A DNA stretch of 64,000 nt from contig NZ_PDKB01000001.1 of the NCBI RefSeq assembly GCF_003316695.1, positions 1 to 64,000 of the forward strand. Reading direction: 5' to 3'. The notes under the pieces are model-generated. The model was not told the origin of the DNA. It ran no database searches and was given only the letters and a program-made list of their open reading frames with translations. The position numbers and the translations under genes were made by a program. The stretch is from Aliarcobacter vitoriensis (GTDB lineage: Bacteria > Campylobacterota > Campylobacteria > Campylobacterales > Arcobacteraceae). This document shows positions 1 to 62,208 of the stretch, piece by piece; positions within the stretch are counted from its first letter, which is position 1, and each line of letters begins with the position of its first letter.

Positions 1-513
1 TATTTCCTATATCTCAACACAATTAAACATATTTAAACACCTTCTTCAAGTTTTATTTATATCCTCTTTATTTTTTTCTATTTATCTTTATTTACATGTT
101 TTATACTATTTATATTTAAGCTTTCTTTTTTATAGATTAGCTTTATTATGTAAGATTGAATAAAACTTTTATTCTTCACTATAACTTTTATTTCATAATA
201 CTTTTATATTTTAGTAAATACTTTATCCTTATATTTTTTTCTATTTATCTATTTCTATTTTTTAAATTTATTTACATAATTCATCTTTTAACTCTTTTTT
301 TAAAGAAGTTTTATTACATTTTATGAGTATTTTTTTAATTATAATTAAGAGCAATAAAAAATTGAAAACAGAATTTTTACTAATAATTGTTACAAAAAGT
401 AATTCGAACTAACAAATTTCAAAATTCTTTTGTAAAAATTGTCCATTTTTTTCATTTAAATCGTCTTACTATATAGAGAAACAAATTCTCAAAATTAATA
501 CAAAGGATTTAAG
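1..513. other. AT-rich non-coding leader upstream of TonB receptor
   Basis: No convincing coding region was seen here on either strand. The stretch is extremely AT-rich. A T-rich motif beginning TTTTTTTCTATTTATCT and ending TTTATTTACAT occurs twice in imperfect form, near 74-97 and 234-277, which may be a decayed duplication or simple compositional bias. A TATATA box at 470-475 is a plausible -10 element for the downstream receptor gene. I saw no clear Fur box, although iron control would be expected for this kind of receptor. Confidence 0.5.
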
Positions 514-2869
514 ATGAAAAGAAAGATTTTCATTTCAGCTTTAGCATCAATGATGTTAAGTGGAACAATGTTAAATGCAAAAGAGATAAGTTTGCAAGAA
601 GCAGTAGAGAATATAGTAAAGAAATATAATGTAACATATATTTCAAAAGCTAATAACTTGAAAGATAAAAGTATAGATTCGCAAAAAGTGAGTTTCGGGG
701 GGGGGTACGGTATTAGATAGTTTAAATAGTATATTAAATCCAAATGAATTAAAAGCTATTCAAGAAGATGGTGTAATATATATAATAGAAAAACCAAAAT
801 ATCAAAACTTTGGTAATACTACTGTTTTAGATGAAATTTCTGTCTCTAGTTCTAATTATAAAAATGGAAGTGCTGAATCAGGATACCTTGTAGAAGAAAC
901 TTCAGATATAGGTCCTTGGAAAGGTAAATCTCTTCAAGATACACCAGTATCAATAAATGTAATCACAGAAGATTTAATCCAAAATATTCAAGCAACAACA
1001 GTAGATCAAATATACAATATCAATCCAACAGTTTCGTCTCATACTATAAAAGAAGCATCAGCATGGAATCCTATTATATTAAGAGGAGTTAGTGGTAGTG
1101 CTGGTACTGCTTTTGATGGTATGAAAAGGGTGGAATCATTTGAGAGTAATAATCCTGAAGAGTTTGAAAGAATAGAAACTATTACTGGTTTATCAGGATT
1201 TTTATATGGAGCAAATAATGTAGGTGGAATTATAAACTATATTCCAAAACGACCAACTTCAAAAGCACAACATAGTGTAACTATCGGAAATGGTGGTGGA
1301 ACTAGTGGGTATTATGCACATCTTGATTCAGGTGGACCACTAGATAGTGAAGGGAAATTTGGTTATAGACTAAATGTAGTTAGCGAAGACCACAATACAA
1401 TAGTATCAAATCAAGATTATGATAGACAAATGATAAATCTAGCACTTGATTATAGACCAACAGATAATCTACTTCTTCAAGCAACAGTTTCTGATAGTAA
1501 ATATAAACTAAATGGAGCTCAAACAAGTTGGAGTATAGGAACTGGAGCTAAAAGATCAAGTGCAAAGCTTATAGATAGTAATAAACTTTGGGGAGAAAAA
1601 TGGGCATATTATTCAAAAGAAAATAGAAGATATAGTACAAATCTTTTATGGAATATAAATGATAATATAGATTTTAGAGCTGCTTATATGTATGAAAAAC
1701 AAGATAGAGGTGGAAATAGTTATGTATGGACAACGATAAATTCTGATGGGACTTATGACAAGGAAGCATATCATAGAGAAAATGGACAAGAGTTTAAAAA
1801 CTGGGGAGCTTATGCTTTCTTATACTTTGATTTTGATACAGCAAGTATAAATCATCAATTAACTTTTGGAGTTCAAACAAGTGAAGGAAAAACAACTGGA
1901 AATATAATGGGTCCAGATAATGGCTATGGAGCAACTTTAACTGGATTAAGTTTTGATTCTCCAACATATATAGGAGATCTTCCTAAAAGAACAGTTATAG
2001 GAAGAGGGTTACACTGGCAGAATAAGTACCAAAATCTAACAATTGGTGATAGTATAGCATTAAATCCTCAATGCGATTTAATCTTGGGAGCAAGTTATGT
2101 AACACTTGAAAATGTAGTAAGTGGCTATGAAAAAAGTGAATTAACTCCATCTGTTTCACTTGTATATAAACCATTTGAAAATCTATCTTTATATACTAGT
2201 TATATGGAAGCTCTTGAGCAAGGAGGAATAGCAGGAGAAACATATAATGGTTATGATGTAACAAATGCAAATGAACAAATGGATCCTATCATGAGTAATC
2301 AAATAGAAGTAGGAGCAAAACTTACTTTAGGTAATACACTTCTAACTGCTGCACTGTTTCAAATAGATAGAGCTTTTCAGTTTTATGATGAAAGTGATAT
2401 AACAAAACCAAAGTATGTACAAGATGGAAGAAATGTATATAAAGGATTTGAGTTTACAGCAACTGGAAAACTAACAGACAATCTAACAGCTCTTGGTGGA
2501 TTTACATTGCTTGAAGCGAGTGTAAAAGACAATAAAAGTAATCCAGCATTAGAAGGAAAAACACCATTTAATGTTTCTGATAAATTTGCAAAATTGTATT
2601 TAGAATATACTCCATTTGATAGTATTAATTTTGCAGTAAACGGTGGAGCAAACTATACTGGAAGTTTTTATGGTACAAATTTTGAAACAGATAAGATAGA
2701 TAGTTACATTTTATATAATATAGGTGCTAGATATACTACAAATGCTACACCTTATCCTTTAACTTTTAGAGTGAATGTAAATAATTTATTTGATAAAGAA
2801 TATTGGGCAAGTTCTTGGAATACAGGAGATAGAAGAAGTGTTTATGCTTCTGTTCAGATGAAGTTTTAA
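514..2869 (+). CDS. TonB-dependent siderophore-type receptor, phase-variable, OFF (frameshifted) in this sequence
   Basis: This is an outer-membrane receptor gene split by a frameshift. The 5' frame (514-720) gives a signal peptide ending near LNA and the start of an STN domain, then stops after 68 residues just past a run of nine G. The 3' frame, readable from about 707 to 2869, continues the STN domain, the plug (GFLYGANNVGG, IINYIPKRP) and the beta-barrel, ending in phenylalanine as outer-membrane proteins do. Eight G would join the frames as FGGGTVLDSL and give about 784 residues; eleven G would also restore the frame. The start is ATG 514 with AAAGGA at 502-507. STN plus plug plus barrel is typical of TonB receptors that can signal to a surface-signalling regulator, but none is next to it. 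The ligand is unknown, probably a ferric siderophore. Confidence 0.85.
697..705 (+). repeat. Poly-G contingency tract (G9)
   Basis: Nine consecutive G lie inside the STN-domain coding region of the TonB receptor, in an otherwise strongly AT-rich sequence. The upstream frame requires 8 or 11 G to enter the downstream frame; with 9 it reaches a stop at 718-720. Slippage at G/C runs is the standard phase-variation mechanism in Campylobacter and Helicobacter. Confidence 0.85.
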
Positions 2870-2878
2870 AACATATAG

Positions 2879-2905
2879 TATAAAGAGAGTTTTTCTCTCT
2901 TTATA
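2879..2905 (+). terminator. Hairpin downstream of TonB receptor
   Basis: A perfect 11-bp inverted repeat (TATAAAGAGAG at 2879-2889, CTCTCTTTATA at 2895-2905) surrounds a TTTTT loop, ten bases after the receptor stop codon. There is no strong T-run directly after the stem, so termination strength is uncertain. Confidence 0.6.
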
Positions 2906-33522: not shown

Positions 33523-35064
33523 ATGACAAGTACACAACAACGAGAAGAACTACAACGACAAATTTGGCAAATAGCAAATGATGTTCGAGGTAGTGTTGAT
33601 GGTTGGGATTTTAAACAATATGTTTTGGGAACTCTTTTTTATAGATTTATTAGTGAGAATTTTGCAAATTATATTGAAGGTGGAGATGATAGTGTAAATT
33701 ATGCAACTCTTTTAGATAGTGTTATTACTTCTGAAATTAAAGAAGATGCTATAAAAACAAAAGGTTATTTTATCTACCCAAGCCAACTTTTTTCAAATAT
33801 TGTAAAAGATGCTAATACAAATCCTAATCTAAACACAGATTTAGCAAAAATATTTTCAAGTATTGAATCTAGTGCAAATGGATACCATTCTGAAGAAGAT
33901 ATAAAGGGATTATTTGCTGATTTTGATACTACAAGCAATAGATTAGGAAATACGGTAATAGATAAAAATAGTCGTTTAAGTGCTGTTTTAAAAGGTGTTG
34001 AAGCTCTTAACTTTGGTAAATTTGAGGATAATCATATTGATTTATTTGGTGATGCTTATGAGTTCTTAATATCAAAATATGCCGCAAATGCAGGTAAAAG
34101 TGGTGGGGAATTTTTTACACCACAAAATGTTTCAAAGCTTATATCTCAACTTGCTATGCATAAGCAAGAGAGTGTAAATAAAATTTATGACCCCGCAGCA
34201 GGTTCTGGAAGTTTACTTCTTCAAGCAAAAAAGCAGTTTGATAAGCATATAGTTGAAGATGGTTTCTTTGGTCAAGAGATAAATCACACAACTTATAATC
34301 TTGCAAGAATGAATATGTTTTTACATAATATCAACTATGATAAATTTAATATAGCTCTTGGTAATACTTTGATAAATCCACATTTTGGAGATGACAAACC
34401 TTTTGATGCTATTGTTTCAAATCCACCATATTCAGTAAATTGGATAGGAAGTGATGATCCAACTCTTATAAATGATGATAGATTTGCACCTGCTGGAGTA
34501 CTAGCTCCAAAATCAAAAGCAGATTTTGCTTTTGTGTTGCATTGCCTTAGTTATCTCTCTTCTAAAGGAAGAGCAGCGATAGTTTGTTTTCCTGGTATCT
34601 TCTATCGTGGTGGAGCTGAACAAAAAATAAGAAAATATCTAATAGATGGCAACTATGTAGAAACTGTTATATCACTAGCTTCAAATCTTTTTTTTGGTAC
34701 TTCAATCGCTGTAAATATATTGGTTCTTTCAAAACATAAAAAAGATACAAAAACACAGTTTATCGATGCAAGTGAACTTTATAAAAAGCAGACAAATAAC
34801 AATATTCTTACAGATGAACATATAGAACAAATACTAAAAGTATTCGATAGTAAAGAAGATATTGAACACTTTACTAAATGTGTAGATATTGAGACAATAG
34901 AGCAAAATGATTACAATCTTTCAGTTAGCTCTTATGTAGAAGCCAAAGATATAAGAGAAAAAATAGATATAAAAAAGCTAAATGATGAACTAAAAATCAC
35001 AGTTGCAAAAATAGACAATCTTAGAAGTGAAATAGATAAAATCATAGCGGAGATTGAAGCATGA
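33523..35064 (+). CDS. hsdM: Type I restriction-modification system, DNA methyltransferase subunit (type IC-like)
   Basis: Adenine N6-methyltransferase subunit of 513 residues. The helical N-terminal domain begins [20 protein letters not shown]. AdoMet motif [14 protein letters not shown] lies near 223 and the catalytic NPPY motif ([12 protein letters not shown]) near 300. The C-terminus forms a coiled coil that packs on HsdS. From memory the sequence is very close to the EcoR124I/EcoprrI (type IC) M subunits, which is striking for a Campylobacterota genome and suggests horizontal transfer. It overlaps hsdS by four bases. Confidence 0.95.
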
Positions 35065-36212
35065 GTGAAAAAATTTCTATAAAAGAACTGCTTGAGGGTG
35101 TAGAGGTTGAGTGGAAGCCTTTGGGGGAAGTTGCAAATTATGAACAACCTACAAAATATTTAGTTAAATCAAAAAACTATAGTAATGAGTTTAAAATACC
35201 AGTTTTAACAGCTGGTAAAACTTTTATTCTTGGGTTTACCGATGAAATAACAGGACTTTATGAAGCATCAAAAAAACCTGTAATTATCTTTGATGATTTT
35301 ACAACTGCTAATAAATGGGTAGATTTTGATTTTAAATCTAAATCATCAGCAATGAAGATGATTACATCAAAAGATGAATCAGAAGTTTTACTAAAATATA
35401 TTTATTATTGGTTAAATACTCTACCAAGTGATTTAATAGATGGAGACCATAAGAGGCAATGGATTAGTAATTTTTCTACTAAATTAATCCCAATCCCATC
35501 TTTAGAAGTGCAAAGTGAAATTGTCCGAATATTGGACAATTTCACGGAGCTTACAGCGGAGCTTACAGCGGAGCTTACATCACGAAAAAAACAATACGAA
35601 TATTATGAAACAAAGTTGTTATTTGAGAATAATTATGAAATGGTTCCTTTAGGTCAACTTTGTACTGTTAATCAAGGTTTACAAATCCCAATAAGTGATA
35701 GAAAAACAGAGGCTGGAGAAAATAGATATTTTTATATAACAGTACAATTTCTAAAAGGAATTGATGAAAAATATTATATAGAATCTCCTTCTCAATCAGT
35801 TATTTGTGATTACGATGATATTTTAGTAACAAGAACTGGAAGTACTGGAAAAATTATTACAGGAGTAAAAGGTTGTTTTCATAATAATTTCTTTAAGGTT
35901 AATTGTTTTGAAAATATAAATAAAAGATATATGTACACAGTTTTAAATAGTAAAGTAATGTTTGGAAAATTACTACAAGTTGCATCAGGTGGAACAGTAC
36001 CAGATTTACCACATAACAAGTTTTACAAAATAAATATTCCTCTTCCATCACTAGAAGAACAAGAAAGAATCGTATCTATCTTAGATAAATTTGACACTTT
36101 AACAAACTCAATTAGTAAGGGTTTACCAAAAGAGATAGAGCTTAGACAAAAACAATATGAGTATTATAGAGATTTACTTTTGACATTTCCAAAAAAAGGT
36201 ATAGAGATATAA
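35061..36212 (+). CDS. hsdS: Type I restriction-modification system, specificity subunit
   Basis: DNA-recognition subunit of 383 residues with two target recognition domains (about 1-150 and 190-330) and two conserved helical spacers. The central spacer (about 150-185) contains [13 protein letters not shown], the TAEL-type repeat characteristic of type IC S subunits, followed by [14 protein letters not shown]. The C-terminal spacer reads [20 protein letters not shown] then [12 protein letters not shown]. In EcoR124 a change from two to three TAEL units adds one base to the spacer of the recognition site. The target sequence cannot be read from here. The two halves differ fully in their recognition domains. 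Confidence 0.93.
35517..35543. repeat. Perfect inverted repeat inside hsdS next to TAEL repeats
   Basis: GAAATTGTCC (35517-35526) and GGACAATTTC (35534-35543) form a 10-bp perfect stem with a seven-base loop, ending two bases before the tandem repeat. It lies in frame in coding sequence, so it may reflect chance or replication-slippage history. Confidence 0.6.
35545..35579 (+). repeat. 12-bp tandem repeats encoding TAEL units in hsdS
   Basis: The unit CGGAGCTTACAG occurs twice exactly and a third time with its last base changed (35545-35556, 35557-35568, 35569-35579/80). It is GC-richer than its surroundings. Each unit encodes four residues of the central spacer helix, so gain or loss of a unit keeps the frame and changes the distance between the two recognition half-sites. 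Confidence 0.85.
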
Positions 36213-36213
36213 T

Positions 36214-37446
36214 ATGGCACAAACATTACAAGAAATCGCCAAACAATTAAGTACACCTAAGATTATAAAAAAAATTGTAAAGACAGAAACTAAGCAAATC
36301 GCAGCAAAAGAAGTTGAAGAAACAAAACAAATTCCTAAAGTACAACTTATTTATGCTTTTAATGGTACAGGAAAAACAAGGCTATCAAAAGAATTTCAAC
36401 AGCTAATCTCTCCAAAAAATGATTATGAGGAAAGTGAAAAAACTAGAGAAAAAATACTCTATTACAATGCTTTTACAGAAGACTTGTTTTCTTGGGACAA
36501 TGATTTAGAATATGATATTGAACCAAAATTAATAATTAAATCTAACTCTTTTACTGATTGGATTTTGAAAGAACAAGGGCAGGATCAAAATATTATAGCT
36601 AATTTTCAGCGATATACTGATGATAAATTGACACCGAAATTTAATCAACAATATTTAAAAGATGAAAATGACCCAACTTCTATAGTAAGAGCTTTTTCTG
36701 AAGTTAGCTTTTCTTTTAGGCGAGGAGATGCAAATAGTATAGAAAATATAAAAATTTCAAAAGGGGAAGAGAGTAACTTTATTTGGAGTGTATTTTATAC
36801 ACTTTTAAAGCAAGTCATGAGTGTAAAAGATGAACAAGAATCAAGTCAATTTGACTCTTTAGAATATATATTTATAGATGATCCAGTCAGTTCATTAGAT
36901 GAAAATCACTTAATAGAGTTGGCAATTGATTTAGCACAATTGATAAAATCTAGTAATTTTGAAAAACATAAATTAAGGTTTATTATTAGTACTCATAATC
37001 CACTTTTTTACAATGTCTTATATAATGAACTCGAAATTAATAAGAAAAAAAGTGGTTATATGCTCACTAAAAATGAAGATGGAACTTTTGAATTGAATGA
37101 AAAATATGGTGATTCAAATAAAAATTTCTCTTATCATTTATTTTTAATAGAAACAATTAAAAAAGCAGTTAATAATAATGGTATAGAAAAATTTCATTTC
37201 ATGTTGTTGCGTAATTTATATGAAAAAACAGCAAGTTTTTTAGGTTACCCTCAATGGTCTCAATTATTACCTACAGAAGCTAGAGACTCTTATGTTAGGC
37301 GTATTAATCTTTATAGTCATAAAAGTTTATCAAATGAAGAAGTTAGTGAGCCTACTCCAGAGGAAAAAAATACTGTTAATTACTTACTTGAACATTTAAT
37401 AAATGAATATAGTTTTTGGAAAGAGGTAGAACACAATGAGTCTTGA
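36214..37446 (+). CDS. prrC: Anticodon nuclease PrrC
   Basis: tRNA-Lys anticodon nuclease held latent by the type IC restriction complex and released when phage attack it, as known for E. coli PrrC. The 410 residues match PrrC length (about 396). N-terminal ABC-type ATPase: Walker A FNGTGKT (49-55), signature SKGEESNF (182-189), Walker [14 protein letters not shown] (218-230) and H-loop [10 protein letters not shown]. The nuclease part carries KYGDS (297-301), and R333, E337 and H369, whose spacing (+4, +36) equals the R320/E324/H356 triad of E. coli PrrC. Gene order M-S-prrC-R is that of the prr locus. It starts 1 base after hsdS and overlaps hsdR by 11. Confidence 0.93.
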
Positions 37447-40400
37447 AGCAAAAGCAATAGCCCAATCAAATAACTTTATAGTTTTAGATAAATATATAAA
37501 AATAGAGCAAGATGGAAGCTCTTATCAAAGTGAAGCAGAACTTGAAAATGAACTAATAAAGGATTTGCAAAACCAAGGTTACGAGTTTTTAAGTGATGTA
37601 AATACTCCTGTTAAATTATTAGAAAATGTAAGGCTTCAACTTCAAAAACTTAACCGTGTAGAGTTTAAAGATAGTGAATGGAATCGTTTTTTAGAAGAGT
37701 ATTTGGATAAACCAAGCGATAATATTGTAGAAAAAACAAGAAAAATTCACGATGATTATATCTATGATTTTGTTTTTGACGATGGTCGTATTCAAAATAT
37801 ATATCTTTTTGATAAAAAAAATATTACAAGAAACAAACTACAAATTATTAAGCAATTTTCTCAAAAAGGAACACAAACCAATCGCTATGATGTAACTATT
37901 TTGGTAAATGGTTTACCACTTGTCCAAATAGAACTTAAAAAAAGAGGAGTTTCTATAAGAGAAGCTTTTAACCAAATTCATAGATACTCAAAAGAGAGTT
38001 TTAATGCAGAAAATTCTTTATATAAATATCTGCAAATCTTTGTTATAACAAATGGAACAGATAGCAGATACTTTGCAAATACTACAAAAAGAGATAAAAA
38101 TAGTTTTGATTTCACAATGAATTGGGCAAAATCTGATAATACTCACATAAAAGATTTAAAAGATTTTACAGCAACATTTTTCCAAAAAAGTAGTTTATTA
38201 GATGTGTTGATTAACTATTGTGTATTTGATACAAGCAATACTTTACTCATAATGCGACCTTATCAAATAGCAGCAACAGAGCGAATTATTTGGAAAATAA
38301 ATAGTTCATATTTAGCCAAAAATTGGTCAAATGATAAAAGTGGTGGGTATATTTGGCATACAACAGGAAGTGGAAAAACTCTAACTAGTTTTAAAGTGGC
38401 AAGATTAGCAACAAAACTTAATTTTATAGATAAAGTATTCTTTGTGGTTGATAGAAAAGATTTAGATTATCAGACTATGAAAGAGTATCAAAAATTTTCA
38501 CCAGATAGTGTAAATGGAAGTGATAGCACAGCAGGACTTAAACGAAATATTGAAAAAGATGATAATAAAATCATCGTTACAACTATACAAAAACTAAATA
38601 ATTTAATGAAAAGCGAAGATAATTTAGATATTTATAATAAGCAAGTAGTTTTTATTTTTGATGAGGCTCATAGAAGTCAATTTGGAGAAGCACAAAAAAA
38701 TCTAAAGAAAAAATTTAAAAAATTCTATCAATTTGGATTTACAGGAACTCCAATTTTTCCTGAAAATGCACTTGGAGCTGAAACTACTGCTAGTGTATTT
38801 GGAACAGAATTGCACTCTTATGTTATTACAGATGCTATACGAGATGAGAAAGTTTTAAAATTTAAAGTGGATTACAATGATGTTCGACCACAGTTTAAAG
38901 CTTTTGAAAGTGAACAAGATGAGAAAAAACTAAGCTCTATTGAAACTAAACAAGCATTACTACAACCTAAAAGAATCAATGAAATCACACAATATATTTT
39001 AAATAATTTTAATCAAAAAACTCATCGTTTGCAAATGGGTGCAAATGGTTTTAATGCAATGTTTGCAGTAAGTAGTGTAGATGCAGCAAAGCTTTATTAT
39101 GAAGCGTTTAAAAACTTGCAAAAAGGCAAAGAAAGACCTCTGAAAATTGCTACTATCTTTTCATTTGCAGCAAATGAAACACAAGATGCAATAGGGGATA
39201 TTTCAGATGAAAATTTTGAACCAACTGCAATGGAAGCAAGTGCAAAAGAGTTTTTAAGTAGTGCAATTGATGATTACAATAAAATATTTAAAACTTCTTA
39301 TAGTGTTGAAAATAAAAGCTTTGAAAACTACTACAAGGATTTAGCAAAAAGAGTAAAAAATAAAGAAGTTGATTTACTTATAGTTGTAGGAATGTTTTTA
39401 ACTGGTTTTGATGCAAAAACTTTAAATACTTTATTTGTTGATAAAAACCTACGATACCACGGTTTAATACAGGCTTATTCAAGAACAAATAGAATATATG
39501 ATGCCACAAAAACTTTTGGAAATATTGTAACTTTTAGAGATTTAGAACAAGCAACTATCGATGCTATAACTTTATTTGGAGATAAAAATACTAAAAATAT
39601 AGTTTTAGAAAAAAGCTATGAAGAGTATATGCAAGGTTTTACAGATATAGTAACGAAAGAAGCTAGAAGAGGTTATTTAGATATTATAGTTGAACTTGAA
39701 CAAAAATTCCCAAATTCTGATGAAATAGAAAAAGATAAAGATAAAAAAGAGTTTGTAAAACTATTTGGAGAGTATTTAAAAGCTGAAAATGTATTACAAA
39801 ATTATGATGAGTTTACAGCTTTAAAAGCTTTACAAGAGTTGGATATTGATAATAGTGATGAAATAGAAGAGTTTAAAACTAAATACTATTTAAGTGATGA
39901 AGATTTTAATAAAATGCAAAATATTAAAATACCAACAGAGCGAACTATTCAAGATTATAAATCAACTTATAATGATATAAGGGAATGGATTAGAAGAGAA
40001 AAAACTTCTAATGAAAAAGAGAGTTCTAAGATTGACTGGAATGATATAGTATTTGAGATTGATTTACTTAAATCTCAAGAGATTAATCTTGATTATATTT
40101 TAGAGTTAATCTTTGAACATAATAAAAAGCTTAAAGATAAAACTACATTGATTGAAGAAGTAAGAAGATTAATTCGTGCTAGTTTGGGAAATCGTGCTAA
40201 AGAGAGTTTGGTTGTAGATTTTATAAATCAAACAAATTTAGATGAAATTTTAGATAAGGCAAGTATTCTTGATGTGTTTTATAAATTTGCACAAATAGAG
40301 CAAGACAAAGAAATAAATACATTAATATCTGATGAAAATTTAAATGAAGAAGCCACAAAAAGGTATATAATTTCATCACTAAAAAGAGAATATGCAAGTG

Positions 40401-40537
40401 AAAATGGTACGGAATTAAATTCGATATTACCAAAAATGAGTCCACTTAATCCTCAATATTTAACAAAAAAACAGAGTGTTTTTCAAAAAATTTCTTCTTT
40501 TGTTGAAAAGTTTAAAGGAGTAGGTGGAAAGATTTAG
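37436..40537 (+). CDS. hsdR: Type I restriction-modification system, restriction/translocation subunit
   Basis: Motor and endonuclease subunit of 1033 residues. The N-terminal PD-(D/E)xK nuclease shows [11 protein letters not shown] and VQIELKK (about 140-175). Superfamily 2 helicase motifs follow: Walker A TTGSGKT near 305, DEAH box [12 protein letters not shown] near 407, motif [12 protein letters not shown], and motif VI region [12 protein letters not shown] near 680. The helical C-terminus (about 850-1033) docks on the methylase. It appears intact, so with hsdM and hsdS the system should be functional. Translation is coupled to prrC by overlap, keeping toxin and guard expressed together. 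Confidence 0.95.
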
Positions 40538-47389: not shown

Positions 47390-48394
<1,005 letters not shown>

Positions 48395-48395
48395 T

Positions 48396-49523
48396 ATGAA
48401 CTTCATACCATATGGAAAACAAACTATAGGTGAAGATGATATAAATAGTCTGGTTGAAACATTAAAATCTGATTTCTTAACAACTGGACCGAAAATAAAA
48501 GAATTTGAAGAAAAACTTGCAAAATATTGTAATGTAAAATATTGTGTCGCTGTAGCAAATGGAACTGCAGCACTTCATCTAGCTTCCCTTGTACTTTTAA
48601 ATAGAAATGACAAAGTTTTAACCTCTCCAAACTCTTTTTTAGCCACTTCAAACTCTATACTTTATGTTGGTGCAAAACCAATTTTTGTAGATATAAAAGA
48701 TGATGGAAATATAGATTTAGATATTTGTGAAGAAGAGCTAAAAAAAGATTCTTCAATAAAAGCTATATATGTTGTACATTTTAGTGGAAATCCAATAAAT
48801 CAAGATAAACTGAAATATTTAAAAAATAAATATAATATTAAAATATTAGAAGATTGTGCACATAGTATTGGAGCGACTTTTGGTGAAATAAAATCTGCCA
48901 GTTGCACAAACAGTGATTGTAGTATCTTATCTTTTCATCCAGTTAAACATATAACTACTGGTGAAGGTGGAGCAATTACTACAAATTCAAAAGAGCTTTA
49001 TGAAAAACTATTAGAACTTAGGGCACATGGAATGGTAAGAAAATCAGAAATTGCACCTTGGTATTATGAAATGCAATCTTTAGGATTTAATTATAGAATA
49101 ACTGACATTGCTTGTGCTTTGGGCATTAGTCAGTTAAAAAAACTTGATGATTTTATAGAAAAGAGAAAAAATATTGCTTTAAAATATGATAAAGCTTTTG
49201 AAAAAACTAACATAAATCCCTTATATCTATATGACGGAAATTCATCTTATCACCTTTATGTAGTAAGAGTTGATTTTTCAAAATTAACTATTTCAAAAAT
49301 AGAATTATTTAACAAAATGAAAGAAAAAAACATAGGTTTACAACTTCACTATATTCCTATAAATAAACAACCTTTTTATAGAAATTTAGGTTATGGAGAT
49401 GAAAAAAATCCAATTATGGATAAATATTATGAAGAATGTTTTTCTCTTCCTATGTATCCTAGTTTAAGTGAAGATGAACAAGAATATGTTATAAAAAATT
49501 TATTAGAAATTTTAAATGTCTAA
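48396..49523 (+). CDS. pseC: UDP-4-amino-4,6-dideoxy-N-acetyl-beta-L-altrosamine transaminase
   Basis: PLP-dependent DegT/DnrJ aminotransferase of 375 residues, the second pseudaminic acid step. The Schiff-base lysine lies in SFHPVKHITTGEGGA; YGKQTIGEDDINSL and ITDIACALGISQL are further family signatures. It overlaps pseF by 8 bp. Confidence 0.94.
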   Translation: MNFIPYGKQTIGEDDINSLVETLKSDFLTTGPKIKEFEEKLAKYCNVKYCVAVANGTAALHLASLVLLNRNDKVLTSPNSFLATSNSILYVGAKPIFVDIKDDGNIDLDICEEELKKDSSIKAIYVVHFSGNPINQDKLKYLKNKYNIKILEDCAHSIGATFGEIKSASCTNSDCSILSFHPVKHITTGEGGAITTNSKELYEKLLELRAHGMVRKSEIAPWYYEMQSLGFNYRITDIACALGISQLKKLDDFIEKRKNIALKYDKAFEKTNINPLYLYDGNSSYHLYVVRVDFSKLTISKIELFNKMKEKNIGLQLHYIPINKQPFYRNLGYGDEKNPIMDKYYEECFSLPMYPSLSEDEQEYVIKNLLEILNV

Positions 49524-50229
49524 CTGTGTAGCAATAATTCCAGCTCGAGGTGGAAGTAAACGAATCCCTAAAAAAAATATAAAAGATTTTCATGGAAAAC
49601 CACTAATTGCATATAGTATTGAGGCTGCTCTAAAATCAAAACTTTTTGATAAAGTTATAGTTTCAACTGATGATGAGGAAATTGCAAAAATTGCAAAAGA
49701 ATATGAAGCTGAAGTTCCATTTATAAGACCAAAAGAGTTAAGTAATGATTTCACAGGCACAGGTGCTGTTGTAAGTCATGCAATAGACTTTTTAAAAGAA
49801 CAAGGTGACAAAATAGATTTTGTTTGTACTATTTATGCTACAGCTCCTCTTTTAAATGAAAAATATTTGATTGAAGGATTTACTAAACTAAAAAATTCAA
49901 ATGCAAAAAATGCCTTTTCTTGTACCTCTATGCCATTTCCAATACAAAGAACTTTTAAAGTAACACCAAATGAAAGATGTGAGATGTTTTGGCCTGAAAA
50001 TTTTATGAAACGAAGCCAAGATTTAGAAGAGGCTTATCAAGATGCAGGGCAGTTTTATTGGACAAACTTAAATATAAACTCAAATGAAATTATTTTTGGC
50101 AAAGATAGTATTCCTATAATCTTACCAAGATACTTAGTTCAAGATATTGATACACTTGAAGACTGGACTAGAGCTGAATTTATGTATGAAGCCATAAAAA
50201 AATCTGAAAATCAAAAAAGTGAAAAATAG
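49516..50229 (+). CDS. pseF: Pseudaminic acid cytidylyltransferase
   Basis: CMP-sugar synthetase of 237 residues that activates pseudaminic acid with CTP. The nucleotide-binding IIPARGGSKRIPKKNI and the following HGKPLIAYSIEAAL are typical of NeuA/PseF. PseF is favoured over NeuA by its place between pseC and pseG. Confidence 0.92.
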   Translation: MSNCVAIIPARGGSKRIPKKNIKDFHGKPLIAYSIEAALKSKLFDKVIVSTDDEEIAKIAKEYEAEVPFIRPKELSNDFTGTGAVVSHAIDFLKEQGDKIDFVCTIYATAPLLNEKYLIEGFTKLKNSNAKNAFSCTSMPFPIQRTFKVTPNERCEMFWPENFMKRSQDLEEAYQDAGQFYWTNLNINSNEIIFGKDSIPIILPRYLVQDIDTLEDWTRAEFMYEAIKKSENQKSEK

Positions 50230-50230
50230 T

Positions 50231-51148
50231 ATGAATATTTTAATAAGAGCAGATTCTTCTTCATATATTGGAACTGGTCATATTATGAGAGATTTAGTTT
50301 TAGCAAAGCAATTTCCAAAAGATAATATTATTTTTGCAACACAAAATTTACAAGGAAATATAAATCATAAAATAGTTGAAGAAAATTACCAAATTGAACT
50401 TCTAAAAACTAATAATTTTGAAGATTTAAACCAACTTATAAAAAAACTAAATATATCTATGATTATAATTGACCATTACGACATAAATTATAATTTTGAA
50501 AAAAAATTGAAAGAAGAAAACCCTACTTTAAAAATTTTTGTTTTTGATGATACTTATGAAAAGCACTATTGTGATATTTTATTAAATCATAATATAAGTG
50601 CAAATGAAGAAAAATATATAAATTTAGTACCTAAAAATTGTGAATTAAGATGTGGAAAGAAGCATACTCTTCTAAGAAAAGAGTTTTTAGAGGCAAAAAA
50701 GCAACAAAATACAATAACAAAAAATGTAAAAGTTAAAACTATATTTATTGCTATGGGTGGAGCAGACCATAAAAATCTAAATATCAAAATATTAAAAGCT
50801 ATAAACAAAGTTTCTAACAAGTCTATTAAAGTAAATATTGTAACAACAATAGCAAATAAAAATTTAGAAAAACTAACAAAATATTGTAAAAATAAAAAAT
50901 GGATAAATTTATACATAAACTCAAATGAAATAGCAAACCTTATGATAAAAAGTGATTTTGCTATTGTAACACCAAGTGTTACTGTAAATGAAGTTTATTA
51001 TTTAGATATTCCATTTATTGCTATTAAAACAGCCAAAAATCAAATTGATATGTATAAATATCTTAAAAAAAATGGATATTATGTTATGAAAGAGTTAAAT
51101 AAAAAAATTTTAAAAAAATATATAAAGCTATTTTTGGAGAAAAAATGA
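50231..51148 (+). CDS. pseG: UDP-2,4-diacetamido-2,4,6-trideoxy-beta-L-altropyranose hydrolase
   Basis: Removes UDP from the diacetamido sugar before condensation with PEP. The 305 residues have a GT-B fold with the N-terminal signature IRADSSSYIGTGHIMRDL (the histidine is functionally important in PseG) and IAMGGADHKNLN in the second half. A GTG four codons upstream (50219) is possible, but ATG 50231, one base after the pseF stop, matches the family N-terminus MNILIRADSS. It overlaps pseI by four bases. Confidence 0.9.
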   Translation: MNILIRADSSSYIGTGHIMRDLVLAKQFPKDNIIFATQNLQGNINHKIVEENYQIELLKTNNFEDLNQLIKKLNISMIIIDHYDINYNFEKKLKEENPTLKIFVFDDTYEKHYCDILLNHNISANEEKYINLVPKNCELRCGKKHTLLRKEFLEAKKQQNTITKNVKVKTIFIAMGGADHKNLNIKILKAINKVSNKSIKVNIVTTIANKNLEKLTKYCKNKKWINLYINSNEIANLMIKSDFAIVTPSVTVNEVYYLDIPFIAIKTAKNQIDMYKYLKKNGYYVMKELNKKILKKYIKLFLEKK

Positions 51149-52176
51149 AAATAGGTACTTTTGATTTAAAAAAAGATGGAACTTTTATTATTGCAGAACT
51201 TAGTGCAAATCATAATGGTAGCTTACAAACTGCACTTGATACAATAAAAGCCGCTAAAGAAATAGGTGCAAATGCTATAAAACTTCAAACATATACTGCT
51301 GATACAATTACACTAAATAGTAAAAATCCTGATTTTATGATAGATGGTGGAACTTTATGGGATGGCAAAAATCTTTATGAATTATATCAAGAAGCTTATA
51401 CTCCATGGGAATGGCATAAAGAATTATTTGATTATGCAAGAAGTTTAGATATAGATATTTTTTCAACTCCTTTTGATAAAAGTGCAGTTGATTTTTTAGA
51501 AACTTTAAATCCAACAGCTTACAAAATAGCATCTTTTGAAATAACTGATTACGAATTAGTTAGATATACAGCAAGTAAACAAAAACCAATTATTATAAGT
51601 ACAGGAATTGCTACAATAGATGAAATTCAAGATGTTATAGAAATTTGTAAAAGTGTGGGAAACAATAATATCATACTTCTAAAATGTACAAGTGAATATC
51701 CAGCACCACTACATGAAGCCAATTTAAAAACTATCTCAAATATGAAAGAAACTTTTGGAGTTGAAATTGGTTTTTCTGATCACACAATGGGCTATATCGC
51801 TCCAGTTGTTGCAGTAACTTTAGGTGCAAAAGTTATAGAAAAGCATTTTATTATTGATAAAACAATTGGTGGAGTAGATTGTAAATTTTCTTTAGATAAA
51901 GAAGAATTCCATGAAATGATAAAAGCTATAAGAGATACTGAAAAATTAATTGGAACTGTAGATTACAGTCTAAATGAAAAAAGAAAAAAACAAAGAAGAT
52001 TTGCAAGAAGTTTATATGTTTCAAAAGATATAAAAACTGGTGAAGTTTTTAGTGAAAATAATATAAAAAGTGTACGACCATTTTATGGACTTCATCCAAA
52101 ATATTTAAAAGACATTCTAGGAAAAACTGCTACAAAAGACTATAAATTTGGAGATAGATTTGAAAATAATTTTTAA
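51145..52176 (+). CDS. pseI: Pseudaminic acid synthase
   Basis: NeuB-family enzyme condensing the 6-deoxy-diacetamido-altrose with phosphoenolpyruvate. The 343 residues comprise a TIM barrel (AELSANHNGSLQTALD, ANAIKLQTYTADTITL, LLKCTSEYPAP, GFSDHTMG) and a C-terminal SAF antifreeze-like domain (about 285-343, ARSLYVSKDIKTGE). The 3' end overlaps the pseH-like gene by 17 bp from the chosen TTG. Confidence 0.94.
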   Translation: MKIGTFDLKKDGTFIIAELSANHNGSLQTALDTIKAAKEIGANAIKLQTYTADTITLNSKNPDFMIDGGTLWDGKNLYELYQEAYTPWEWHKELFDYARSLDIDIFSTPFDKSAVDFLETLNPTAYKIASFEITDYELVRYTASKQKPIIISTGIATIDEIQDVIEICKSVGNNNIILLKCTSEYPAPLHEANLKTISNMKETFGVEIGFSDHTMGYIAPVVAVTLGAKVIEKHFIIDKTIGGVDCKFSLDKEEFHEMIKAIRDTEKLIGTVDYSLNEKRKKQRRFARSLYVSKDIKTGEVFSENNIKSVRPFYGLHPKYLKDILGKTATKDYKFGDRFENNF

Positions 52177-52693
52177 AGATTTTATATTTTTAAACAATAA
52201 TGAAATTGAAGAAATTTTAGAGCTTAGAAACCAAACATATATAAGAGAGAATATGATTAATACTGAACTAATAAGTTTAAAAAATCATATTAATTTTATA
52301 AATTCTTTAAAGACCTCATCAAATAAAAAATATTTTGCTATTTTTTGTGAAAATGAACTTTTTGGCTCAGTTAATTTTGTAAAAAATGAAAAAGAACTTA
52401 GTTGGGGATTATACTTTAAGAATAACTCAAATCCTATTTTAAAATCAGTTTCAACTTATATATTTTTAAATTTTATTTTTGAAAGATTTGATGAAGATAT
52501 TCACTCCTTTGTAAAAAAGAGTAATCTACAAGCAATAAATTTTAATAAAAACTTTGGTTTTAAAAGTTTTAAAGAAGATATCGAATATTTTTATTTGAAA
52601 CTTTCTAAAGAAATCTGGGAAAAACATAAAAACTCAAAATTAATAAACCCTATTAAAAAATATTTAGATAAAATAGAATATAACTTTAACTAA
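52160..52693 (+). CDS. pseH: PseH-like GNAT N-acetyltransferase
   Basis: Probable acetylation step of the pseudaminic acid pathway (N-acetylation at C4). The 177 residues have GNAT features: ILELRNQTYIRENMI near the start, FAIFCENELFGSVNF, and NLQAINFNKNFGFKSF late. Sequence divergence from known PseH is high, so the call leans on context: pseB, C, F, G and I are immediately upstream and an acetyltransferase is the only missing function. The start is taken at TTG 52160, with GGAG at 52149 and suitable spacing; TTG 52148 is an alternative. Confidence 0.72.
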   Translation: MKIIFKDFIFLNNNEIEEILELRNQTYIRENMINTELISLKNHINFINSLKTSSNKKYFAIFCENELFGSVNFVKNEKELSWGLYFKNNSNPILKSVSTYIFLNFIFERFDEDIHSFVKKSNLQAINFNKNFGFKSFKEDIEYFYLKLSKEIWEKHKNSKLINPIKKYLDKIEYNFN

Positions 52694-52704
52694 AGAGAAG
52701 AACT

Positions 52705-52998
52705 ATGCAAAAGCAGATTGAACAAATAATAATTGAAACCCTAAAAGAATTAAATGAAGAGTTAGAAAATGAATTATTTATAAATCCGACTTCTAAAACA
52801 AAATTATATGGTGGAACTGGAGCATTAGATTCTTTAGCACTTGTGAGTTTTATCACTGATTTAGAAGATAAGATTTCTGATAAATTTGAAAAAAATATAA
52901 TTTTAGCAGATGAAAAAGCAATGAGTGCAAAAACATCTCCTTTTAGAAACATTGAAACTTTAACTTTATACATTAAAGATTTACTGGAAAATCAATGA
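52705..52998 (+). CDS. Acyl carrier protein-like
   Basis: Small acidic carrier of 97 residues. The phosphopantetheine-attachment motif is GALDSLALV with Ser43, followed by the expected helix (FITDLEDKI). It overlaps the SDR gene by four bases and is upstream of an acyl-activating enzyme, so it probably carries an acyl or aminoacyl group destined for a sugar. It is distinct from housekeeping AcpP by its longer N-terminus and context. Confidence 0.82.
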   Translation: MQKQIEQIIIETLKELNEELENELFINPTSKTKLYGGTGALDSLALVSFITDLEDKISDKFEKNIILADEKAMSAKTSPFRNIETLTLYIKDLLENQ

Positions 52999-53696
52999 GT
53001 AAAATTATACTTATAACTGGGACTTCAAAAGGTATTGGAAAAGCTATAGCAAACTATTATTTGAAAAAAGACAATATTGTAATAGGTTGTAGTAGAAGTG
53101 AAAGTTCTATAAATCATAAAAATTATAGACATTTTTCTTTAGAAATAAACAATGAAATAGCTGTTGTAAATATGATAAAAAATATAAAAAAAGAGTTTCA
53201 AAAGATTGATATACTTATCAACAATGCTGGGATTGCATCAATGAATCACATTTTGACAACTTCAATTGATACTATTTCAAAACTTTTTAATACAAATTTT
53301 ATAGGAACTTTTTTATTTACAAGAGAAGTTTCAAAAGTTATGATGAAACAAAAGAATGGAAGAATTATAAATTTTACAACAGTTGCAAAGCCACTTAGAC
53401 TTGAAGGAGAAGCTGTTTATGCTTCAAGTAAAGCTGCTATTGAAACTTTTACTCAAACTGCTTCAAAAGAGTTAGCTCCTTTTAATATTACTGTAAATGC
53501 TATTGGCCCAACACCAATTCAAACTGATTTAATCAAAGCTATTCCTAAAAATAAAATTGATGAACTCTTAAATAAACAAACTATCAAAAGATTTGGTACA
53601 TTTGAAGATATCATAAATGTATGTGATTTTTTTTGTGATGATAAAAGCAACTTTATAACAGGTCAGATAATTTATCTTGGTGGAGTAAATAACTAA
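52995..53696 (+). CDS. Short-chain dehydrogenase/reductase (FabG-like)
   Basis: NAD(P)-dependent reductase of 233 residues. The cofactor loop is TGTSKGIGKAIA, with NNAG, the active-site YASSKAAIETF and the late GPTPIQTDLI all as in FabG-type SDRs. Lying between an ACP and an acyl-activating enzyme, it may reduce a 3-keto group on the ACP-bound intermediate. Confidence 0.85.
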   Translation: MSKIILITGTSKGIGKAIANYYLKKDNIVIGCSRSESSINHKNYRHFSLEINNEIAVVNMIKNIKKEFQKIDILINNAGIASMNHILTTSIDTISKLFNTNFIGTFLFTREVSKVMMKQKNGRIINFTTVAKPLRLEGEAVYASSKAAIETFTQTASKELAPFNITVNAIGPTPIQTDLIKAIPKNKIDELLNKQTIKRFGTFEDIINVCDFFCDDKSNFITGQIIYLGGVNN

Positions 53697-55034
53697 ATGA
53701 GTTTTGTAATAGAAAGATTTAAAAGTTTTAACCAAAAGAAAGCACTAATATTTGAAGATATTTCATATACCTATGAAGAGTATATTCTTCAAATAGAAAC
53801 TTATAAAAAAATTTTAACTGAAAACAAAATATCTTCAAAAGTAGTTGCAATTTTAGGGGATTACTCTTTTTATAATTTGGCACTTTTTTTTGCTTTATAC
53901 GAAAATAAAAATATTATTGTTCCTATTACTACTAACATACAAAAAATTCAAGATGAGTTTATACAAGAATCTTTTTGCAAAATTACAATAAAAGTAAGAA
54001 ATGATGAATTATTAATACAGAATTTGGAACAAAATCATTCTCATAATATGATAGAAAAACTAACAACTAATAATAATTCTGGTTTAGTTCTGTTTTCTAG
54101 TGGAAGCACTGGCAAACCAAAAGCTATGATTCACAATCTTGATAATCTCTTAAACTCATATAAAGATAAAAAAGAAAAATCTATGAATATGTTGGTTTTT
54201 TTGATGTTTGATCATATTGGTGGACTAAATACAATTTTTAATTCTTTATTTATGGGTGCAACTCTAATCATACCTAAACAAAAAGATGCAAAAAATATAT
54301 GTTCTTTAATAGAAAAATATAAAATAATGGTACTTCCAAGTAGTCCAACATTTTTAAATCTGATTTTAATTTCTGGTGAACATGAAAAATATGATTTAAG
54401 TAGTTTAAGAATGATAACATATGGCACAGAAACAATGCCAGAATCACTACTTTTAAGACTAAAAAATATCTTTCCAAAAGTAAAATTTTTGCAAACTTTT
54501 GGAACAAGTGAAACAGGAATTAGCACAACTAGTTCAAAATCATCTGATTCTTTATTTATGAAGCTTGAAGATATAAATTGTGAATACAAGATAGTTGAAA
54601 ATGAGCTTTGGCTAAGAAGCCAAACTCAAGTTTTAGGATATTTAAATGCTTCAATGGATAGTTTTACGAGTGATGGTTGGTTTAAAACAGGTGATTTAGT
54701 AGAAGTTCTTGAAGATGGATTTTTAAAAATTATTGGAAGAAGTAAAGAAGTAATAAATGTAGGTGGACAAAAAGTATTACCAAGTGAAGTTGAAAGTATT
54801 ATTTTAAGTCTTGATGAAATAGATGATTGTATGGTTTATGGCGAAAAAAATGCTATAACTGGGCAAACAGTTGTTTGTGATGTAGTTTTAAATAAAGATG
54901 TTGAAAATATAAAAAAAATTATAAGACTTTTTTGTAAAGATAAACTTGATGCTTTTAAGATTCCTACAAAAGTAAATATTGTTGAAAAAACAAATTTTTC
55001 TGAACGATTTAAAAAAATCAGAAGGAAAGGTTAA
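53697..55034 (+). CDS. Acyl/amino acid-activating AMP ligase (ANL superfamily)
   Basis: Adenylate-forming enzyme of 445 residues, short for the family. Visible core motifs are LFSSGSTGKPKAMIH (P-loop), TFGTSETGIS, GWFKTGDLVEVLEDG and GRSKEVINVGGQKVLPSEVE. The catalytic C-terminal lysine is probably in FSERFKKIRRKG. It probably loads the adjacent ACP. In C. jejuni, genes of the flagellar glycosylation island include a similar activating enzyme next to an ACP (known from memory), so acyl or amino acid decoration of a nonulosonate is a reasonable inference. Confidence 0.82.
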   Translation: MSFVIERFKSFNQKKALIFEDISYTYEEYILQIETYKKILTENKISSKVVAILGDYSFYNLALFFALYENKNIIVPITTNIQKIQDEFIQESFCKITIKVRNDELLIQNLEQNHSHNMIEKLTTNNNSGLVLFSSGSTGKPKAMIHNLDNLLNSYKDKKEKSMNMLVFLMFDHIGGLNTIFNSLFMGATLIIPKQKDAKNICSLIEKYKIMVLPSSPTFLNLILISGEHEKYDLSSLRMITYGTETMPESLLLRLKNIFPKVKFLQTFGTSETGISTTSSKSSDSLFMKLEDINCEYKIVENELWLRSQTQVLGYLNASMDSFTSDGWFKTGDLVEVLEDGFLKIIGRSKEVINVGGQKVLPSEVESIILSLDEIDDCMVYGEKNAITGQTVVCDVVLNKDVENIKKIIRLFCKDKLDAFKIPTKVNIVEKTNFSERFKKIRRKG

Positions 55035-55037
55035 AAA

Positions 55038-56417
55038 ATGATTTCTTTAAAATCTTTTGACAATAAAGTAATATATTTAGCTCCTCACTCTCCAATGACT
55101 TTAGCTTTAAAAAATTATTTAGAGGTTAAAAATGTAAATATTAAAGGCTTTATTGATAAAAATAAAGAGGACACTAATATTATAAAGATTGAAGAATTAG
55201 CTAATATAGAATTTGATTATATTTTTATTCTAAGCCCAAATCATTTTAATGCAATTTTTCAAGAATATTCTAAAACTATTAATAAAGATAAAATAATTCA
55301 GCTCTCTATAAATAATGGGAAGTATAAATTTAATAAAACTTTCAATATCACTCAACGAGATTTTTTTTATATTCCAAAAGATATAGAGTGTAAAAGGAAT
55401 AAATTTGTATTTATTTCAAAAAGCTTTATAAGTGCAAACAATAAAGCTTTATATCTTTATTGTATTAGAAATAATATAGATACAATATTGTTAACAGATA
55501 ATAATGAACAAGTAAAAGAGCTAAAACAGAATAACCTTCCATATCATTTATTAAATACAAAAGAAGCTGATTATGAAATAGCTATCTCTAAATTTATAAT
55601 TTTTGACCAAGGAAATTATACATATTTACCAAATTTACACAATTCACAAAGTACAGTTCAATTGTGGCATGGTGTGGGTTTAAAAAAAATGTCTAAAATG
55701 AATAACATTACTTATGACTATTTCATATCAACTTCTAACTGGACAAATGAAACAAACTTTAAAAATATATTTAATGCAAAAGAATTTTTGAACTTAGGTT
55801 ATCCTAGAAATGATATTTTTTTTAAAGAGGATGATAGTTTAGATTTAATGTTCTGTGATAAACAAGTTTATGAAATAGTTAAAAATAATAACTATAATAA
55901 AATAATTTTATATATGCCAACTCATAGAGAAAATAACACAGAAATTGCTTTAGATTTAGATAGGTTAAATAAGAAATTACAAGAAATAAACTCTCTATTT
56001 ATAATTAAATTACACCCTTTTGTTTTAGAATTTTATAAACATACATATAACAAATTATTTAGTAATATAATTTTTCATAATGCTAACGGTGATATATATC
56101 CACTTTTAAAATATGTAGATATTTTAGTAAGTGATTATTCATCAATAGTATATGATTTTTTACTACTAAATAAACCTATAATATTTTATATATATGATAT
56201 AGAAGATTATATAAAGAATACAAATCTTCTTTTTGATTATAATGAATATTCTTCAGGAATAAAAGTAAAGAATCAAGATGAATTAGAAAATAGTTTTTTA
56301 CAAGAAGATATATATTTTAAGCAAAGAAAAAAGATAAAAAATCTATTTTTTGATGAAATTGCTCAAGATATATGTTCTAAAAATATTATAGATAAATTAT
56401 TGGAGAAAAATATATGA
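55038..56417 (+). CDS. CDP-glycerol/ribitol-type polyol-phosphate transferase (TagF/TagB-like) with N-terminal Rossmann-like domain
   Basis: Protein of 459 residues. The N-terminal 100 residues form an alpha/beta domain (NKVIYLAPHSPMTLALKNYL, IDKNKED) similar in style to nucleotide-sugar binding caps. The C-terminal half is of the CDP-glycerol glycerophosphotransferase family: LWHGVGLKKMS, MPTHRENN, IKLHPFV and the hallmark SDYSSIVYDFLLLNKPIIFY. It lacks membrane helices. The fused CDP-ribitol synthase follows, so the donor is likely CDP-ribitol. It overlaps that gene by four bases. Confidence 0.82.
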   Translation: MISLKSFDNKVIYLAPHSPMTLALKNYLEVKNVNIKGFIDKNKEDTNIIKIEELANIEFDYIFILSPNHFNAIFQEYSKTINKDKIIQLSINNGKYKFNKTFNITQRDFFYIPKDIECKRNKFVFISKSFISANNKALYLYCIRNNIDTILLTDNNEQVKELKQNNLPYHLLNTKEADYEIAISKFIIFDQGNYTYLPNLHNSQSTVQLWHGVGLKKMSKMNNITYDYFISTSNWTNETNFKNIFNAKEFLNLGYPRNDIFFKEDDSLDLMFCDKQVYEIVKNNNYNKIILYMPTHRENNTEIALDLDRLNKKLQEINSLFIIKLHPFVLEFYKHTYNKLFSNIIFHNANGDIYPLLKYVDILVSDYSSIVYDFLLLNKPIIFYIYDIEDYIKNTNLLFDYNEYSSGIKVKNQDELENSFLQEDIYFKQRKKIKNLFFDEIAQDICSKNIIDKLLEKNI

Positions 56418-57778
56418 ATATTGCAATAATTCTAAGTGCAGGAAGTGGAAGTAGATTTGGAAGTGATGTACCAAAACAGTTTATAAATTTAGCTGGTAAA
56501 AATATTATTGAATATACTATTGCTGCATTTGAACAAAATGATAAAATAGACGAAATATGTATCGTTACAGATACAATTTATCATGAAAAATTACTTGAAA
56601 TCTCAAAAAATAATAATTTTATAAAAGTAAAAAAAGTTATTCAAGGTGGAGTTGAGAGAAAAGATTCAAGTTATAATGCTATAAAAGAGTATGAAAATCA
56701 AAAAGATATAAATCTTATTTTCCATGATGCAGTTCGACCTTTTGTTTCTCAAAGAATAATAAATGATACAATTGAAGCTTTGAAAAAATATAACGCAATA
56801 GATGTTGCTATACCAACTGCAGATACAATTATACAAATAGATGAAATTTCAAAAACTATAGAGAATATACCTCAAAGAAGTAAACTTCAAAGAGGACAAA
56901 CACCGCAAGCCTTTAAACTAGAAATTATAAAAAAAGCTCATGAATTAGCTATTGAAGATATAAATGAACCAATGTTTACAGATGATTGTGGTTTAGTGAA
57001 ACAGTACTTACCAAATGAAAAAATATTTGTAGTAAATGGTGAAGAAAAAAATATAAAAATTACATATAAAGAAGATTTACTTTTTGCAGAAAAATTAATT
57101 CAGTTTAATTCTATTTCATTATCGAAAGAAAACTCTTTTTCTACTTTAAAAAATAAAGTTATAGTTGTTTTTGGTGGAAGTAGTGGCATAGGAAAAGAGA
57201 TAGTAAAAATTGCAAATGCTCATAAAGCAAAAGCAATATCTTTTAGTAGAATAAATGGTATTGATATAACTTCAAAAAAAGATGTGAAAAAAGCTTTAAA
57301 AAAAGTTTTTGAAAGATATGGAAAAATTGATAGTGTTATAAATTGTGCGGCAACTCTAACTAAGAAAGAGTTAGTAGATATGAGGTTTGAAGATATAAGT
57401 AAAGAGATAAATATAAATTTTTTTGGAGCAATAAATATTGCAAAAACTTCTTTTAAATATTTGAAAAAATCTAAAGGCTCTTTAATTTTGTTTACTTCAA
57501 GTTCATATACAAGAGGAAGATCTAGTTATAGTTTATATAGCTCTACAAAAGCTGCAATCGTAAATTTAACACAATCACTTGCTAGTGAGTGGCAAAAAAA
57601 TAGTATAAATGTGAATGTGATTTGTCCAGCAAGAACAGCAACACCAATGAGAGAAAAAAATTTTGGTAAAGAAGATAATAAAACTTTACTTAGCTCAAAA
57701 ATTGTAGCAGAAAATACACTTCAAACTTTGATAAAAGATTTTAGTGGTTTAGTTATTGATGTAAAGCAAGGAATTTAA
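56414..57778 (+). CDS. Bifunctional ribulose 5-phosphate reductase/CDP-ribitol pyrophosphorylase-like fusion
   Basis: Two-domain protein of 454 residues. Residues 1-230 are an IspD/TarI-type cytidylyltransferase: ILSAGSGSRFGSDVPKQF, FHDAVRPFVS and the late FTDDCGLVKQY. Residues 245-454 are an SDR with cofactor loop VFGGSSGIGKEI and active-site SLYSSTKAA. This domain order is that of H. influenzae Bcs1, which reduces ribulose 5-phosphate and adds CMP to give CDP-ribitol. A plain IspD is unlikely because of the fusion and locus. The neighbouring TagF-like gene would use the product. Confidence 0.82.
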   Translation: MNIAIILSAGSGSRFGSDVPKQFINLAGKNIIEYTIAAFEQNDKIDEICIVTDTIYHEKLLEISKNNNFIKVKKVIQGGVERKDSSYNAIKEYENQKDINLIFHDAVRPFVSQRIINDTIEALKKYNAIDVAIPTADTIIQIDEISKTIENIPQRSKLQRGQTPQAFKLEIIKKAHELAIEDINEPMFTDDCGLVKQYLPNEKIFVVNGEEKNIKITYKEDLLFAEKLIQFNSISLSKENSFSTLKNKVIVVFGGSSGIGKEIVKIANAHKAKAISFSRINGIDITSKKDVKKALKKVFERYGKIDSVINCAATLTKKELVDMRFEDISKEININFFGAINIAKTSFKYLKKSKGSLILFTSSSYTRGRSSYSLYSSTKAAIVNLTQSLASEWQKNSINVNVICPARTATPMREKNFGKEDNKTLLSSKIVAENTLQTLIKDFSGLVIDVKQGI

Positions 57779-57780
57779 TA

Positions 57781-60081: not shown

Positions 60082-60085
60082 TTGA

Positions 60086-62201: not shown

Positions 62202-62208
62202 CTATTTT

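Follow-up and report, generated by a model that had tools for sequence, protein, structure and literature searches.

A split TonB-dependent siderophore receptor gene in Aliarcobacter vitoriensis, a probable member of a dispersed receptor family carrying a portable poly-G switch cassette

A receptor gene split at a run of nine G residues

The window, the whole 64,000-nucleotide stretch of A. vitoriensis DNA analyzed here, carries close to its start a receptor gene divided between two reading frames (Table 1). The ATG at 514, preceded by AAAGGA, opens a frame that encodes a signal peptide followed by the first part of a signalling (STN) domain. The Pfam STN model gave no match on the split leader, and the STN assignment of this frame comes from the profile comparison of intact relatives described below. 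The frame following the tract, whose translation begins TVLDSLNSILNPNELKAIQE, is open until the stop codon at 2867-2869 and encodes 721 aa, matching the PF07715 Plug model at positions 2-107 of 107, the PF00593 beta-barrel model at positions 2-436 of 436, and the TIGR01783 siderophore-receptor model over its full length (1-649 of 649; 282 bits vs. a cut-off of 223.5). The solved relatives closest by sequence are FemA and BauA, and only distant proteobacterial receptors (21-29% identity) were retrieved by querying named genomes with the receptor body. With both plug and beta-barrel complete and the subfamily model matched above its cut-off, the gene in the window is a TonB-dependent siderophore receptor.

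Table 1. Features of the receptor gene and its upstream region (positions in the window)
Feature	Position	Strand	Remarks
Palindrome GTTACnnnnnGTAAC (window copy GTTACAAAAAGTAAT), possible operator	389..403	+	begins 52 bp ahead of the -35-like element
Putative FecI-type (ECF sigma) promoter GTCCATTTTTTTCATTTAAATCGTCTTA	441..468	+	
Inverted repeat GAGAAACAAATTCTC	476..490	+	between promoter and start codon; kept in cassette copies
Ribosome-binding site AAAGGA	502..507	+	from the sequence; kept across cassette copies
Leader ORF, 68 aa	514..720	+	signal peptide and first half of STN; ends out of frame
G9 slippage tract	697..705	+	in-frame lengths are 3n+2
TonB-dependent siderophore receptor body	704..2869	+	rest of STN, plug, beta-barrel
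3' part of cassette	706..840	+	second half of STN and linker; kept until about 130-150 bp past the tract
Stem-loop, terminator-like	2879..2905		3' of the receptor; strand not assigned

The G9 tract is out of frame, because leader and body are joined only at lengths of 3n+2. In the downstream frame the earliest start codon of any kind is found at 1121, within the plug, and an exported product therefore cannot begin after the tract; in the present G9 state an exported receptor should not be expected. A preliminary description of this DNA had placed the split at nine G within the STN domain and had taken the frame past the tract to be otherwise intact, and both points hold: the 68-aa leader stops at 720, just past the tract at 697-705, and Plug and beta-barrel matches are complete in a frame open to 2869. 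The same description had kept sequencing error as an alternative, which looks unlikely, since 25 runs of 8-9 A or T residues are found within long intact frames of the window. The tract is the sole run of at least 7 G in the window (3 overlapping G7 matches vs. 0.15 expected from shuffles).

Other regions of the window were surveyed as well. No Rfam family was found in it. Type I restriction-modification genes reside at 33523-40537, the specificity and restriction subunits being separated by an ATPase-like gene, and a large surface-glycan region, the genes of which resemble those for pseudaminic/legionaminic acid synthesis and nucleotide-sugar enzymes, spans 47390-63780.

A leader cassette common to many receptor genes

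The genome (here G000) is a 2.43-Mb draft in 66 contigs, in which the stretches around all TonB plug matches and all G tracts were examined. The leader of the window gene is part of a cassette of approximately 450 bp, made up by a putative ECF-type promoter, a signal peptide, an STN domain with the tract inside, and a linker. The 18 fully readable copies, aligned on the tract, are mostly 0.74-0.99 identical from approximately 300 bases before it to approximately 130 bases after it, and identity outside the cassette goes down to 0.30-0.45. Past the tract, sliding identity among the same copies is 0.83-0.89 to 120 bp, 0.71 at 120-150 bp, and 0.40-0.45 after 180 bp. The receptor bodies found behind the cassette differ widely (mean identity 32%, range 19-74%), and one paralogue is 100% identical to the window gene in the first 45 residues past the tract, but only 22% identical in the body. 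All four combinations of leader alleles are present at three pairs of sites, and hence the cassette recombines among copies; as judged from these comparisons, it appears to have passed from one unrelated receptor body to another, by transfer or by conversion. Several contigs of the assembly end within the cassette. No copy of the promoter was found in viral contigs, and no copy of the cassette in plasmids.

The Pfam STN model failed to match also the intact relatives of the family. When profiles were compared, the intact leaders of G014 and G003, both from the same genus (see below), matched the STN receptors of G000 with 97.6% probability (E 4e-12, 112 columns), and the FecI/FecR-linked receptors with 96.4% probability. 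By this comparison the cassette family carries an N-terminal STN domain ahead of the plug, as TonB-dependent transducers do, and a frame break within this domain would abolish signalling and transport together.

Abundance and frame of G tracts in the genome

TonB plug matches number 58 in G000; the other members of the genus, 30 genomes, have 2-35. Tracts of at least 8 G residues are 33 (one G8, 30 G9, two G10), a number to be compared with approximately 0.5 expected in 2.43 Mb if bases were independent. Twenty-two tracts share the context TTTC(G)nTAC[G/A]GTATTA and lie in STN-type receptors. Twenty-one of these cassette tracts are G9, one is G10, and all 22 are out of frame. In the C7 and C18 cassettes the leader is one base longer and belongs to a different in-frame class, and both are still out of frame at G9. 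The run is not a matter of ordinary codon choice, because GGG accounts for only 53 of the 1,041 glycine codons found elsewhere in genes of the family.

A second family of receptors carries the tract in the signal peptide. Among its 8 loci, 5 are out of frame, 2 are in frame at G9, and one is an orphan leader with G10. The non-orphan loci (L068, L071, L073, L091, L098, L110, L119) have promoters different from that of the cassette. The orphan, made up by signal peptide and G10 tract, resides on contig C63 at approximately 110175-110184 (L085, minus strand, 817-826 of the reverse complement), before an intact receptor featuring its own signal peptide, and looks like a remnant of recombination. 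Further tracts were noticed. A G9 tract at position 2038 of L131 (C65 19537-19545) lies just ahead of a two-component sensor-kinase/response-regulator gene set, and could be a regulator switch. L126 has a G8 tract (at 2314 of the reverse complement) close to small regulator-like genes; the G9 tract of L130 (at 2331 of the reverse complement) lies in a gene-poor stretch. Loss of mismatch repair was considered as the cause of the tracts and discarded: a MutS_I protein is present in G000, and mismatch repair does not set this genome apart, since the protein is found in all 30 other genomes of the genus.

The uniform G9 length might be an artefact of sequencing or assembly, longer tracts having been shortened or leader bubbles collapsed, and the genes might truly be in frame. 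G tracts are hard for Illumina sequencing (PMC9187656), and contigs ending inside the cassette indicate that the assembler struggled there. Such an origin is nevertheless improbable. Receptors of the second family likewise carry G9 tracts, two of which are in frame, so that no single systematic error would bring every gene into frame. Two tracts were read as G10, and the long A/T runs of the window leave its genes unbroken. Tracts and family would remain, moreover, even were the lengths wrong.

Tract length and frame in related genomes

Two further genomes of the genus, G003 and G014, have relatives of the leader at full strength. The single G003 copy has no tract and is complete (785 aa). Three copies reside in G014, a closed genome. 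The first has a G10 tract, is in frame, and encodes 785 aa; the second has a G8 tract and is out of frame, the 25 bases on each side of the tract being identical to those of the G10 copy. In the third the tract is interrupted by an A (GGGGGAGGG; L133, C1 437833-438015), the leader is out of frame, and the barrel frame is open. The first two copies, paralogues and not members of one population, are direct evidence that tract length differs between identically flanked genes and sets the frame.

Integrity of the receptor bodies

The 18 complete bodies (707-735 aa) total 12,987 codons and contain no stops, whereas among the 25,938 codons of the two shifted frames 3,013 are stops. Values of dN/dS are 0.27-0.57 for the ten pairs of bodies closest to each other, and 0.38 when the window receptor is compared to its nearest paralogue. 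Because stops are missing and dN/dS is in this range, the OFF receptor genes appear to be maintained rather than decaying; intact bodies under selection would not be expected of genes never expressed.

These data bear on the view that the family consists of silenced or decaying duplicates, among which an out-of-frame leader was spread by gene conversion, the bodies being pseudogenes or sequence donors. All 22 readable tracts of the assembly are indeed out of frame, the cassette has clearly been spread by recombination, and the interrupted-tract copy of G014 looks fixed out of frame. Stop-free bodies with dN/dS values of this order make decay very unlikely, as do the 785-aa in-frame copy of G014, which bears the same kind of tract, and the two tract-bearing receptors of the second family that are in frame in G000. 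A fixed slippery site, at which slippage of RNA polymerase or ribosomes on G9 would let each copy supply full-length receptor at a low, steady level with no change in DNA length, would fit the uniform G9 and the intact, selected bodies, but is hardly credible given that G10 and G8 occur in identically flanked copies, so that DNA length does vary, and that two copies of the other family are in frame at nine.

Slippage in the DNA remains the preferred reading, and as far as sequence comparison can tell, the loci display the features of a poly-G contingency locus: a tract within an ORF sets the frame, coding sequence on both sides is intact and selected, and in-frame and out-of-frame lengths are found among related copies (G10 and G8 in G014, G9 and G10 in G000), these copies being paralogues and not strains.

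Promoter of the family and its link to FecI/FecR

The promoter pattern GTCCATTTTTN(4-14)TCGTCTTA is present in 26 copies in G000, 24 of which match letter for letter, and the reversed control gave 0. G014 has three copies, and the remaining 29 genomes of the genus gave no match. The palindrome GTTACnnnnnGTAAC is found at equal spacing in 25 of the 25 cassette copies checked; it was not seen at six other FecR-linked receptors of G000. The inverted repeat GAGAAACAAATTCTC is found, with changes, also in G014, G013 and G003. A sigma-70 promoter was searched for ahead of the window gene, and none was found at 300-513.

On contig C2, genes encoding an ECF sigma factor (FecI) and a FecR protein with a FecR_C domain directly precede the cassette promoter and a family leader, and thus adjoin a receptor of the family; the contig breaks off within this receptor gene, ahead of the tract. 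Orthologues of the C2 FecR (67-74% identity) were found in G014 (74%), G012, G013 and G003. In G014 and G013 the gene following FecI/FecR is an STN receptor, with a promoter nearly the same as that of the family (GTCCACTTTTTGATAGTTCAATCGTCTTA in G014) and an STN leader which differs from the family's. In FecI/FecR-type systems the STN domain is known to make contact with the anti-sigma factor, at a C-terminal portion that is itself STN-like (PMC11637429). Because the linked receptors of G014 and G013 have a different leader, the compatibility of the family STN with this FecR is a matter of inference. The six other FecR-linked STN receptors of G000 have no tract, and their promoters are similar in form and different in sequence. 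The simplest reading of the shared promoter is that the C2 FecI recognizes it throughout the family; crosstalk from other FecI proteins may also occur.

Discussion

The gene in the window probably belongs to a dispersed family, with at least 26 TonB receptor loci, that is provided with a portable phase-switch cassette, mostly OFF, and served by one surface-signalling sigma factor. Replication slippage in living cells would alter the length of the tract. At an in-frame length the leader would be joined to plug and barrel, giving an exported receptor; at G9, the usual length in G000, translation would break off immediately, and the gene would give no protein for transport or for signalling. The default state would be OFF, because none of the 22 tracts that could be read in the family is in frame, and rare cells would turn single receptors on. 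The FecI/FecR pair found beside the C2 cassette most likely drives the common promoter. A receptor switched on and engaged by a ferric siderophore, its presumed ligand, would signal through STN to FecR and raise the transcription of the whole family, the G tracts determining which receptors get made.

More tentatively, and with somewhat less than an even chance in our estimate, the arrangement may work as a two-layer receptor lottery. One sigma factor would serve approximately 26 alternative siderophore receptors, each kept OFF by default by the recombining STN G-tract cassette; cells would sample receptors at random, and a productive receptor would feed back on the family. Two findings run counter to switching as such: the presence of G9 in 21 of 22 tracts is more uniform than might be expected of a fast switch, and no in-frame copy of the family is found in the G000 assembly. 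Rare tract lengths may have been flattened in the draft assembly of near-identical leaders, a risk raised by the contigs ending inside the cassette.

A slippage switch caught OFF in an iron-type receptor had been proposed in the preliminary description. Comparative evidence backs the kind of switch, as purifying selection acts on an intact body, 22 paralogous copies keep the tract, and G014 offers an in-frame and an out-of-frame version between identical flanks. The scale envisaged was far too small: in place of one lone switched receptor, at least 26 loci, the gene among them, have a common promoter and leader. Poly-G contingency loci in Campylobacter and Helicobacter are mostly surface-sugar and flagellar genes; homopolymeric G tracts shift frames there as here, where the target is a family of outer-membrane receptors. 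The analogy drawn with Campylobacter is not automatic, since A. butzleri RM4018, the relative studied best, was reported to be without poly-GC tracts (PMC2147049). Gene content and seven FecI/FecR pairs suggest a placement of G000 near A. butzleri. Strain RM4018 has seven ECF sigma/anti-sigma pairs, five of which are flanked by TonB receptor genes (PMC3445524; PMC2147049), a number in line with the seven FecR-linked STN receptors of G000; the latter differs in featuring 33 tracts and 58 plug matches.

Switching of iron receptors by poly-G tracts is known in the meningococcus for HmbR and HpuAB (PMC3786947). Outer-membrane iron-acquisition receptors are switched in both cases by poly-G length within the coding frame, but the meningococcal systems are two, while at least 26 loci share here one cassette, with the tract in STN, and a common ECF-type promoter. 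STN-FecR signalling is established in the FecA/FecR/FecI and FoxA/FoxR/FoxI systems (PMC11637429), which likewise consist of an STN receptor, a FecR with FecR_C, and an ECF sigma factor having the receptor gene as target. Systems of this type usually have one receptor per sigma/anti-sigma pair and no tract, whereas many receptors share here the promoter of one pair. In the pilus genes of Bifidobacterium breve an intragenic G tract similarly splits an ORF in two, joined upon length change; that switch concerns Gram-positive pili and two loci, unlike the receptors of G000 (PMC9187656). No paper combining Arcobacter, TonB-dependent receptor and phase variation was found in the open-access literature, and no many-member receptor family with one common switch cassette and one surface-signalling promoter was found described in the open literature searched.

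Studies of phase variation commonly deal with single genes. In G000 a mobile cassette uniting promoter and switch seems to have come to lie before many unrelated barrels, so that an expansion of receptors would now be a largely silent stock governed by a single sigma factor. TonB receptors are also entry doors for phages and bacteriocins; a default-OFF repertoire would for this reason keep rare uptake abilities in the population without exposing every cell. Arcobacter-type bacteria can hold a large set of candidate G-tract switches, notwithstanding the report on A. butzleri RM4018 (PMC2147049), and the cassette family makes testable how signalling receptors share one FecI/FecR pair.
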